A DNA stretch of 64,000 nucleotides. It comes from Bacteroidota bacterium (GTDB taxonomy: Bacteria; Bacteroidota; Bacteroidia; AKYH767-A; OLB10). Position 1 is the first letter of the stretch. Each line of letters begins with the position of its first letter. Location: positions 62,001 through 126,000 of the forward strand of contig JAHEYP010000003.1 of the NCBI GenBank assembly GCA_023251535.1. The letters are read 5' to 3'. Below the pieces are notes generated by a model that worked only from the letters and a program-made list of their open reading frames with translations, had not been told where the DNA came from and ran no database searches. Positions 15,350 through 21,156 of the stretch are shown one piece after another. A program made the translations under genes and the position numbers.

Positions 15350-15886
15350 TTAAAGTGGTTTCTGTTCACGGATTTGTTCTCTCGTTTGGCCGCTTTTGAT
15401 TTTTTCTTGAAGCGCCATTAATGCATGAAGTAAAGCTTCAGGTCGCGGAGGACATCCAGGAATATAAACGTCAACCGGAATTACATGGTCAGCACCTTTC
15501 ACGACAGAATATGTATTGTAGAAAAACGGACCACCGCTTATTGCGCATGCTCCCATAGCAACAACATATTTCGGATCTGCCATTTGATCATAAAGTCGCT
15601 TAAGCACCGGAGCCATTTTATTCACGATTGTTCCAGCAATTATGATTACGTCGGCTTGTCGTGGAGTAGCACGCGCTACCTCGAATCCGAAGCGAGAGAA
15701 ATCATATTTTGCACCTGCTACCGACATCATCTCGATACCGCAGCAGCTAGTAGCAAATGTTAATGGCCATAATGAATTGGAGCGAGCCCAATTAATTACA
15801 TCGTCAAGTTTGCTAGTTACGATTCCTCCTCCCGGTACTTCGTGTATTGTTCCGGGGAAAGTAGTAGGAGTGGTTTTTATATCCAT
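15350..15886 (-). CDS. nuoB: NADH-quinone oxidoreductase subunit B
   Basis: A 178-residue subunit that carries cluster N2, the last iron-sulfur cluster before quinone. The four cysteine ligands are present: the adjacent pair in [10 protein letters not shown], one in [10 protein letters not shown] and one in [10 protein letters not shown]. It overlaps the nuoA end by 10 bp. The subfamily fits NuoB of complex I rather than a hydrogenase, given the operon. Confidence 0.96.
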
Positions 15887-17252: not shown

Positions 17253-18323
17253 ATGTCAGCTAATAATTGTGCTCCTGCAAATCAGCGAAAGCAGCTTGGA
17301 TTTTTAGATAGGTATTTAACCCTGTGGATATTTGCTGCCATGTTGGTGGGAGTTTTAATCGGTTATCTTAATAACGATTCAGCCGCCTTTATCAACTCAT
17401 TTTCAATAGGTACCACCAATATTCCAATTGCAGTTGGCTTGATTTTAATGATGTATCCTCCTTTCGCAAAAGTGAAATATGAGAAGTTGAAGGAAGTATT
17501 TAAGAATATTAAAATTTTGGGTATTTCATTGCTTATCAATTGGGTAATAGGACCGATATTGATGTTCTTTTTAGCTATCACTCTTCTACATGATTATCCT
17601 CATTACATGGTCGGATTAATATTAATCGGCCTTGCTCGTTGCATCGCAATGGTGATAGTATGGAATGAATTGGCTGAAGGGAGTAGGGAGTATGCTGCGG
17701 GATTAGTAGCGCTTAATAGTATATTCCAAGTCGTTTTTTATAGCATTTATGCCTATCTATTCGTGACGATTTTGCCGCCTTTCTTTGGTATTACCAGCGT
17801 TGAAGTAAATATCTCGATGGGGCAGATTGCCGAAAGTGTAGCTATCTATTTAGGATTACCATTTGTTATGGGATTTGTTACACGGTTTTTCCTCTTAAAA
17901 GTTAAAGGCGAAGATTGGTATAATTCAGAGTTTATTCCGAAGGTTAGTCCGATAACTTTAGTCGCACTCCTTTTTACAATTTTAGTTATGTTTAGTTTGA
18001 AAGGAGATTTGATTATTCAAATTCCTTTTGATGTTCTTCGTATAGCCATACCGTTAGTAATATATTTCATTCTAATGTTTGTTTTTTCTTTCCTCATTGC
18101 CAAACGAATGGGAGCCGACTATAGCACTAATACAGCAATAGCATTTACTGCGACAGGAAATAATTTCGAACTTGCCATTGCAGTATCTATTGCAGTATTC
18201 GGAATAAATTCAGGTGAGGCTTTTGCCGGAGTTATTGGCCCATTGGTTGAAGTTCCGGCCTTAATAGCATTGGTAAATTTGGCCTTCTATTTTAGAGGGA
18301 AATTGTATAAAAACAATATTTAG
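17253..18323 (+). CDS. acr3: Arsenite efflux transporter of the ACR3 family
   Basis: A 356-residue inner-membrane protein with about ten membrane segments that exports arsenite. The essential cysteine of the fourth segment is present in [18 protein letters not shown], and the conserved acidic residue of the ninth segment in [18 protein letters not shown]. The N-terminal part ([21 protein letters not shown]) is typical. It stands alone: the usual arsR and arsC neighbours are missing. The strong palindrome just upstream suggests control by an ArsR protein encoded elsewhere. Confidence 0.93.
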
Positions 18324-18799: not shown

Positions 18800-18854
18800 T
18801 TGATATGAAATTTTGCCATTCGTTCGTTTAGCCTAATCTATCTCTCATTGGTTG

Positions 18855-19394
18855 CTAAAAGCTGTCAATAATTTTATCTTCAAATCTTCTTTTCATATAT
18901 TTCAACTTAGGCTCAATAACGAATATACTGTAACCGCTTTCGCGATTGAACTTGTAGAAATTTTGATGCAGAGGTTCCGCAGGGTAAAACTGTTTGTATT
19001 CCGAAACTTCAGTAACGATTGGATTTAAATATTGAGTCTTGCATTGATCGATTATCTCGAAAGCCAATTTTCGTTGGTCATCGTGGTGATGAAGGATGAT
19101 AGATCGGAAATGCGTTCCTTTATCGGGGCCTTGAGCATTAAGTGTGGTAGGATCATGTGAGGTGAAGAAAATATTCAATAAGTCGACATAAGTTATTAGT
19201 TCGGGATTATAGATAAGTTGAACTACTTGTGCATGTCCTGTCTTGCCTGAACATATATCCATGTAAGTTGGATTTTCGGTATTTCCTCCAGAATAGCCAC
19301 TGATGCAATTTTCAACACCTTTTACGTTTCTAAAAATGGAGTCAATACACCAAAAGCTACCTCCCCCAAAGGTTGCAAATTCTTTATTATGCAT
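18855..19394 (-). CDS. MsrA-like protein lacking catalytic residues (predicted pseudoenzyme)
   Basis: A 179-residue protein clearly homologous to peptide methionine-(S)-sulfoxide reductase A over its full length (GNTENPTYMDICSGKTGH, THFRSIILHHHDDQ, HQNFYKFN). Aligned by eye to E. coli MsrA, the nucleophilic Cys51 is Ser13 (GGGSFWC instead of GGGCFW), Glu94 is Gln56 (GHAQ), Tyr134 is Phe96 (THFRS), and the resolving cysteine near the C-terminus is Ser (GYSIFVIEPKL). Phe and Trp of the methyl pocket (Phe14, Trp15), Tyr44 and Asp91 remain. The reading frame is intact, so it is not a decayed gene. It probably cannot reduce methionine sulfoxide but may still bind it. It is downstream of an AraC regulator and a DUF417-like gene. 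An alternative is that Cys16 serves as nucleophile. Confidence 0.85.
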   Translation of the reverse strand: MHNKEFATFGGGSFWCIDSIFRNVKGVENCISGYSGGNTENPTYMDICSGKTGHAQVVQLIYNPELITYVDLLNIFFTSHDPTTLNAQGPDKGTHFRSIILHHHDDQRKLAFEIIDQCKTQYLNPIVTEVSEYKQFYPAEPLHQNFYKFNRESGYSIFVIEPKLKYMKRRFEDKIIDSF

Positions 19395-19414: not shown

Positions 19415-19870
19415 TTAATTTTCTTGATTGGTGATCATATATCCAAAAAGAAGTAATCCTATGCCTAATAAAGTGAAATCCTTAATTAGTAAGGCGTTTT
19501 TAAACAAAGCTTCGGATGCTAAGTTTGCATGTTGAGTTACGTGACTAAATGAAAGTGTTGTTGCAAACAAAATGGTATTCATTGAAATTCCGAGCAATGC
19601 TTTGGTTTTACTCTTGTAATAATAATAAAGTAGATATCCGCTGAGAATTTCAATAGTGCCAAATAATATAACGGTTATGTTGTGGCCTAGTTGATATGAT
19701 ACTTTGGTTAATATTGTATCAGAACACAGTATTTCACTGAACAGTCCATTATTTCTGTTTATAAGAAAAAACAATCCGAAACATATATGAAATGTTCCGA
19801 TTATTGCCAGTGTTATAAAAAGTGAAATAGATAAATTTCTCCTCCAATTTATAATAGATAAAGAGCTCAT
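19415..19870 (-). CDS. DUF417/RclC-like small membrane protein
   Basis: A 151-residue protein with four hydrophobic segments. The pattern GTIEILSGYLL in the second segment region, LFATTLSF in the third and NALLIKDFTLLGIGLLL in the fourth resembles the DUF417 family, which includes RclC, an inner-membrane protein of the reactive-chlorine response in E. coli. That identification is by eye and moderate; a DoxX-like protein is the other option. It lies 20 bp upstream of the MsrA-like gene on the same strand, so the two are probably one transcript, under an AraC-type regulator as in the rcl locus. Confidence 0.55.
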   Translation of the reverse strand: MSSLSIINWRRNLSISLFITLAIIGTFHICFGLFFLINRNNGLFSEILCSDTILTKVSYQLGHNITVILFGTIEILSGYLLYYYYKSKTKALLGISMNTILFATTLSFSHVTQHANLASEALFKNALLIKDFTLLGIGLLLFGYMITNQEN

Positions 19871-19927: not shown

Positions 19928-20272
19928 TTAGACTCCGAATTCTCGATTTTTTACCGAATAGAATATTTTCCCATTATTTCTATTCTCTATTACATATATT
20001 ATGCCGAAATTATACTTAAAAACTTGTTTTGTGTTTGTTGGAAATTCCTTTCTCATTGTTAATTGTTCCAGATAAAATATGATAAAAATCATGCCAATAA
20101 CTAACAAATTTGCATGATATTCCCATTTGTTTTGAGGCAAATAATAAATCGGATCTATTTGTCTGAATACAGGCACATAGCTTTCACAAAACTTTTGGAT
20201 GTTTTGTTGTGAATTGTTCCTGAAAAAATATTGATCGTTGTTAGTAAATGTCAGGATTGACCTATATCCTTT
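19928..20272 (-). pseudogene. Hypothetical ORF, probably truncated at the 5' end
   Basis: The frame is open from about 20275 down to a stop at 19928, but it has no ATG before an internal methionine; the first plausible start is GTG at 20176, which gives 82 residues. The sequence upstream of that GTG reads like protein (LTFTNNDQYFFRNNSQQNI), so the coding part probably once began further upstream. The C-terminal part has one hydrophobic segment (NLLVIGMIFIIFYLEQL). I do not recognise a family. It stands between the AraC regulator and the DUF417-like gene on the same strand. Confidence 0.4.
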
Positions 20273-20313: not shown

Positions 20314-21156
20314 TTATGCTTCTGCTTTTGAAGAGGTATTCTCTCGATATTGAGAAGGTGAAACTCCTTCTCTAGTTTTGAAAAAGTGGCTAAATGCTTG
20401 CAAGTCGTTAAAGTTCATTTCGCTCGCAATTTCTTGAATTGGAGCCGTCGTAAATGTTAACATTCGCTTGGCTTCCAACATTTTTCTATCATTAATAATT
20501 TGCAATGGAGTTTTGTCGATATGTTGCGTAAATAAATTTGAAAGTGTTTTCGGTGATTTATTCAATAGTGAAGCATATTCCGAAACTTTATGTAGTGTTT
20601 TAAAGTTTTTTTCTACCAAGTAGTTAAATTCTCTTATTAAGGCTAGACTTGAATTGTCTACTGGGAGATTTAAGTTATTGTTTTTATACACTCTAATACT
20701 TAAAATCAAGAATCGCTTAAGCAGTGTTTGAAGAATGTCAAGCGTGAAATTGTCACGTTCTTTTATTTCCATTAAAAAACTTTCCCAAATAAAGTTAAAC
20801 TGCTCTTTACGTTCGATGGGGATGGCAATTTTAGGGATATCGGATGCTCCATAAAATAACATTCCTTTACATCCGATATCGTCGTCGTGGTTCTCTAAAC
20901 AATAGAAATGTCGATTAAATTGAATTAAGTTTAGCTTTTCAAAGCAGAAATTTTCGATTTGATGGTACTCGGTGATAAAGATAATATTGTCGGTTTCAAT
21001 TTTGATGGATTGCTTGTCAATATTAAAGTGCGCAGGATTGCCTCTGTTCCAGATTATGCAGAGTCCCTTTCGAAACTCTTTGTCGAATATATGTCTCTGC
21101 TCCGGGAGTATTTCGGATACAAAGATTGTTTCTTCGTGTTGTCCTATAAATTTCAT
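20314..21156 (-). CDS. AraC family transcriptional regulator
   Basis: A 280-residue cytoplasmic DNA-binding protein. The C-terminal hundred residues hold two helix-turn-helix units: HKVSEYASLLNKSPKTLSNLF and PIQEIASEMNFNDLQAFSHF, followed by the family signature GVSPSQYRE. The N-terminal 165 residues form the variable sensor domain with cysteines and histidines (for example HDDDIGCKGM), and look cupin-like. It is the most upstream gene of the locus that contains the DUF417-like and MsrA-like genes. By analogy with RclR it may sense an oxidant, which is inference. Confidence 0.88.
   Translation of the reverse strand: MKFIGQHEETIFVSEILPEQRHIFDKEFRKGLCIIWNRGNPAHFNIDKQSIKIETDNIIFITEYHQIENFCFEKLNLIQFNRHFYCLENHDDDIGCKGMLFYGASDIPKIAIPIERKEQFNFIWESFLMEIKERDNFTLDILQTLLKRFLILSIRVYKNNNLNLPVDNSSLALIREFNYLVEKNFKTLHKVSEYASLLNKSPKTLSNLFTQHIDKTPLQIINDRKMLEAKRMLTFTTAPIQEIASEMNFNDLQAFSHFFKTREGVSPSQYRENTSSKAEA

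Follow-up and report, generated by a model that had tools for sequence, protein, structure and literature searches.

Results

The window, by which we mean the whole 64,000-nucleotide stretch of DNA analysed here, contains an intact open reading frame on the minus strand (18855-19394) that runs from ATG to TAG and encodes a protein of 179 amino acids, as had been predicted from the sequence. This protein matches the PMSR/MsrA family PF01625 with E=8e-53 and 179.2 bits (Pfam cut-off 23.7) and also passes the TIGR00401 msrA equivalog, scoring 168.8 bits against a cut-off of 108.1. Upstream and on the same strand lie a gene for a small membrane protein of 151 amino acids (19415-19870), at a distance of 20 bp, and, separated from this pair by a 443-bp gap, a gene for an AraC-family regulator of 280 amino acids (20314-21156; PF12833, 6.3e-22). 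The locus had been described as containing an AraC regulator and a DUF417-like protein. The former was confirmed, whereas the small membrane protein is weakly DUF417-like (RclC-like), with a match to PF04224 (1.5e-4, 21.8 bits) that falls below the Pfam cut-off of 27.

All three genes are conserved in a second species, represented by a Bacteroidota metagenome-assembled genome (MAG), which we refer to as G003, the window genome being G000. The AraC orthologue is 94% identical (dN/dS 0.02) and the DUF417-like orthologue 81% identical (dN/dS 0.09), with the same 20-bp spacing to the MsrA-like gene; no DUF417-like protein of this kind was found in 296 other genomes of the phylum or in plasmids. 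Alignment of the two species additionally revealed a non-coding block of ~104 bp between the AraC and DUF417-like genes (19989-20092, minus strand), which is about 93% conserved and thus exceeds the adjoining genes (about 79-84% identical). A mechanically called ORF of 82 amino acids overlaps this block. Inspection of the alignment showed that nearly all base differences within it are nonsynonymous and that the second species has an upstream stop, and for this reason we read the block as regulatory DNA and as a candidate regulatory region of the DUF417-like/MsrA-like gene pair. Rfam returned no match in the locus, the conserved block included, and promoter-like sites in the locus were no more frequent than in shuffled sequences.

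On the other strand, at 17253-18323, the window carries a gene for an ACR3 family arsenite efflux transporter (437 bits against a cut-off of 282.8), and a gene for a 112-amino-acid membrane protein with no family assigned lies between it and the locus. Both G000 and G003 encode NuoB twice, the two types being 53% identical (window 15350-15886 and G000:C25:40203-40652), while the five remaining genomes of the genus yielded the second type alone. This distribution indicates that the nuo cluster of the window is specific to the G000/G003 pair, and the region as a whole may be so too.

The MsrA-like protein is most similar to canonical Bacteroidota MsrA (44-52% identity), and its residues were equated with those of E. 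coli MsrA by a constant offset of 38 up to Phe96, with Ser156 corresponding to Cys198. Four catalytic residues, each present in 53/53 canonical Bacteroidota homologues, are replaced: the nucleophile Cys51 by Ser13 (C13S; codon AGC, 19356-19358), the catalytic Glu94 by Gln56 (E56Q; CAA, 19227-19229), Tyr134 by Phe96 (Y96F; TTC, 19107-19109) and the recycling Cys198 by Ser156 (C156S; AGT, 18927-18929), all read on the minus strand. The corresponding motifs are GSFWCID, TGHAQ, THFRS and GYSIFVI, compared to GCFWCxE, TGHAE, TQYRS and (P/G)YCxxVI in the usual enzyme. Further conservative changes, which the original prediction had not named, affect near-invariant sites (E18D, Q95H, Y102H and Y146F). 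Most of the substitutions are near-isosteric, comprising two C-to-S and two Y-to-F changes besides E to Q and E to D. All 53 relatives agree at 42 positions, and at eight of these (13, 18, 56, 95, 96, 146, 156 and 166), half of them catalytic, both species differ, so that changes are enriched at known catalytic or pocket positions, a set that we chose from the literature (4/8 versus 4/34 other invariant positions; one-sided Fisher p=0.03). Retained are Phe14, Trp15, Tyr44 (E. coli Tyr82) and Asp91 (E. coli Asp129), together with the complete segments HDPTTLNxQGxD and TGHA. Residue roles other than that of Asp129 follow published work (PMC6316033, PMC6210582).

The original prediction had named the same four replacements and the same four retained residues, and alignment with the 53 canonical MsrA proteins bore out each of them. 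Its wording that all key catalytic residues are replaced was slightly too strong, because Tyr44 and Asp91 are unchanged. It had also proposed a pocket kept without chemistry, and this held in part: the fold is retained along with half of the pocket, but Y96F alters the pocket and a side chain that holds the sulfoxide oxygen is gone. In MsrA the sulfoxide-oxygen subsite consists of Tyr82, Glu94 and Tyr134 (PMC6316033); of its tyrosine pair, Tyr44 is retained and Tyr134 has become Phe96. AlphaFold2 models of the two orthologue sequences had a pLDDT of 36, which is too low for use.

One close relative of the protein emerged when 84,980 species genomes were scanned by pattern; it lies on MAG contig JAKPPP010000398.1 (L003, 5001-5540; G003:C178 has the same sequence at the locus). 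This orthologue is 85% identical in protein and 82% in nucleotide sequence, shares every change, and has identical codons at positions 13, 56, 95, 96, 102 and 146, with serine also at 156. An orthologue with the four catalytic changes and the same neighbours had been named as the comparison to seek, and a sequencing error at codon 13 combined with unchanged orthologues as a counter-indication; the orthologue carries the changes. Identical codons and shared changes in species 18% apart in DNA reflect neither chance nor sequencing error, and we accordingly rejected an error or frameshift as the source of the pattern. Selenocysteine or other recoding at codon 13 was likewise rejected, the codon being AGC, not TGA, in both species.

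The window genome also encodes an ordinary MsrA on contig 16, with GCFWC, HAE, TQYRS and PYC motifs, which would make a repair function of the MsrA-like protein redundant. The ordinary MsrA proteins of the two species (L001 in G000 and L020 in G003) are 99% identical with a dS of 0.155, whereas genes at the window locus have dS values of 0.66-1.6. Such a low value could stem from recombination or transfer, or from one MAG being a mixed bin.

A tree built from 59 MsrA proteins places the pair of MsrA-like proteins on a stem 1.51 changes per column long, while the tips measure 0.07 and 0.13 (median tip 0.15). A long stem with short tips would fit a burst of change followed by constraint, as after a change of function. 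When four remote paralogues were omitted, the pair grouped with the MsrA of a flavobacterial gene module described below, with a support of 91/51 that is not significant and leaves the alternatives standing; in AU tests, grouping of the pair with the family's or the genus's own MsrA was not rejected (p-AU 0.64 and 0.45).

Three alternatives to a pseudoenzyme that binds methionine-S-sulfoxide or methionine-like side chains are weighed here, in the order of a scaffold or other-ligand role, relocated chemistry and decay. The long stem, together with non-catalytic changes at near-invariant sites (Q95H, Y102H, Y146F) and the 20-bp spacing of the MsrA-like and DUF417-like genes in both species, is compatible with a fold that has been kept as a scaffold, for a protein partner (the DUF417-like protein, the AraC regulator or a chaperone client) or for another small molecule, recognition of the sulfoxide having been lost. 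We regard this as somewhat unlikely, given that a pure scaffold would have no need for the full retention of Phe14, Trp15, Tyr44, Asp91 and the HDPTTLNxQGxD and TGHA segments.

The second species additionally encodes a thioredoxin-like protein of 167 amino acids, the gene for which starts 2 bp after the MsrA-like gene (L003 5543-6046). At the equivalent position the window has a 55-bp intergenic gap (18800-18854, minus strand), and a search for the thioredoxin-like gene gave no match anywhere in G000, so that a hidden partner elsewhere in the genome was rejected. Within the order, no genome other than G003 yielded the protein. Its relatives (30% identity) occur in genome G227 and in 30/400 genomes of the family of G227, which we infer from its genomes and gene content to be the Flavobacteriaceae. 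Of the 20 loci that were read, 16 have the thioredoxin-like relative beside a canonical MsrA, usually in the order MsrB-MsrA-thioredoxin-like-glutaredoxin and in several cases with SelO next, which suggests that this recurrent neighbour is a dedicated reductant for MsrA. This gene order (L080 6035-7900; loci L083-L101) recurs in that one family of the class, and the MsrB-MsrA module loci often include, in addition, SelO or a second, remote MsrA (23-30% identical). All 20 homologues have a C(P/R)GC motif (CPGC, with one CRGC); the G003 protein has CRGS, the first cysteine being kept. With CRGS in one species and the gene absent in the other, both partners have lost their thiol chemistry, yet the MsrA fold has been retained under selection.

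The remaining cysteine of the thioredoxin-like neighbour, and the conservation of Cys16, Cys30 and Cys48 of the MsrA-like protein in both species, also suit a relocation of the chemistry, in which Cys16 alone or with Cys30 or Cys48 would act as a slow or altered reductase or as a thiol redox switch. Other pseudoenzymes are known in which catalytic residues have migrated (PMC10211241). We nevertheless consider relocation improbable, as the general acid, the recycling cysteine and the CxxC of the partner have all been lost, and Cys16 and Cys48 are found in 53/53 and 52/53 ordinary Cys13 enzymes, respectively, so that their conservation needs no new role.

Finally, we examined selection on the gene and its distribution. 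Between the two species dN/dS is 0.079 (bootstrap 0.043-0.131) at a dS of about 1.1, within the range of the neighbouring genes of the same species pair (0.02-0.09), so that the gene is under purifying selection. The protein is known from these two species, residues having been read for the loci that were fetched, and no further orthologue was seen in the genus or family. MsrA copies from the five remaining genomes of the genus and from the rest of the family score as ordinary enzymes, and those read are canonical, as are all best-scoring MsrA relatives fetched from 396 genomes of the phylum. A scan of 149 genomes of the class for a GG-Ser-FW DNA pattern, covering AGY and not TCN serine codons, led to 30 loci, among which only that of the window has an MsrA fold. 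Viral contigs contained no MsrA. A gene specific to one lineage, with a long stem and, in G000, beside a partner gene that is already lost, might be taken for a redundant copy of MsrA that had been transferred or duplicated and is now decaying. With a dN/dS of 0.08, a frame that is intact in two species 18% apart in DNA, mostly near-isosteric changes and short tips, we judge decay very improbable and rejected it as the main reading.

Discussion

Taken together, these sequence comparisons favour a maintained pseudoenzyme that works by binding, with methionine-S-sulfoxide or methionine-like side chains as the first candidate ligands, in an AraC/DUF417-like locus; we give this reading about one chance in two. 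The loss of MsrA-type reduction is very likely. During reduction by MsrA, a cysteine thiolate attacks the sulfoxide sulfur, for which serine is no substitute. Since a general acid, a tyrosine and the recycling cysteine are missing as well, MsrA-type reduction by this protein is very unlikely, and the earlier proposal that it is not a working reductase is supported by catalytic-site losses common to both species.

The putative ancestor would have been a working MsrA, perhaps from a Flavobacteriaceae-like MsrA-thioredoxin-like module, whose dedicated thioredoxin-like reductant was subsequently disarmed in G003 and lost from the window genome. Thiol and sulfenic-acid chemistry would have disappeared through near-isosteric replacement of the nucleophile, the general acid, one of the two tyrosine proton donors and the recycling cysteine, while the aromatic Phe-Trp site, Tyr44 and Asp91 persisted and Gln56 could still donate a hydrogen bond. 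Such a protein would most likely bind methionine-S-sulfoxide, whether free or within a peptide, or else methionine-like side chains, and could serve as a binder or regulatory partner in its small AraC/DUF417-like locus.

Binding without chemistry is the best-supported class of function, because part of the pocket is retained and an engineered C51S mutant of Neisseria MsrA has been crystallised with bound MetO (PDB 3bqf, PMC6210582); this structure is among the nearest PDB chains to the pseudoenzyme. Y96F, Q95H and Y102H reshape the pocket region as well, and the ligand may be something other than a sulfoxide. We therefore put a methionine or MetO group as the ligand at about even odds at best. 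A sensor role is a plausible conjecture, and we hold it rather doubtful that the protein is a natural methionine-S-sulfoxide reader that reports oxidation to the AraC/DUF417-like locus, with the disarmed thioredoxin-like partner as its former reductant.

In contrast to the writers and erasers of methionine sulfoxide, its readers are, to our knowledge, hardly known. An MsrA that is naturally dead yet strongly selected is a candidate reader, with a possible use as a reagent to detect Met-S-sulfoxide. If the binding reading is true, evolution has made the enzymologists' own set of dead mutants (C-to-S, E-to-Q, Y-to-F, C-to-S) so that what was a repair enzyme now serves for binding or signalling. 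A literature search, which covered few subscription journals, found no natural MsrA pseudoenzyme. New here is that the thioredoxin-like neighbour of the pseudoenzyme carries CRGS in the second species and that its gene is gone from the window genome; the joint loss of chemistry from both proteins would be a compact example of a redox pair that was repurposed with the MsrA fold kept.

Compared to MsrA as defined by PF01625 and TIGR00401, the protein shares the whole domain, the fold residues, the Phe-Trp pair and the equivalents of Tyr82 and Asp129, and scores above both curated cut-offs, but the equivalents of Cys51, Glu94, Tyr134 and Cys198 are all replaced and the locus lacks an MsrB gene. 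The adjacent AraC regulator and DUF417-like small membrane protein recall the Rcl system of E. coli (RclR AraC, RclC DUF417), in which RclR-RclC are needed against hypothiocyanite (PMC12096828). Inspection of the ORFs in the locus revealed neither rclA nor rclB, and the AraC protein fails the RclR equivalog NF040475 (19.9 bits against a cut-off of 400). As both the AraC and the DUF417-like protein score below curated cut-offs, we do not claim membership of the Rcl system.

The MsrB-MsrA-thioredoxin-like-glutaredoxin-SelO module of the Flavobacteriaceae (for example L080) likewise has a homologous thioredoxin-like gene directly after MsrA. In contrast to the locus described here, with CRGS or no such gene and without MsrB, glutaredoxin or SelO, that module consists of canonical enzymes and a CPGC protein. 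For the G003 partner protein alone, a parallel is offered by the chaperedoxin CnoX of E. coli (SXXC; PMC6282202), a member of an unrelated family with a thioredoxin fold that has lost oxidoreductase activity and has another protective job. The closest likeness to the change at the nucleophile is the C51S form of Neisseria PilB MsrA, in which the nucleophile is also replaced by serine and the pocket is otherwise kept; PilB moreover joins MsrA to a thioredoxin-like domain, resembling the MsrA-thioredoxin-like pair of the second species. Whereas the Neisseria protein is a laboratory mutant with its other catalytic residues intact, the pseudoenzyme described here is natural.
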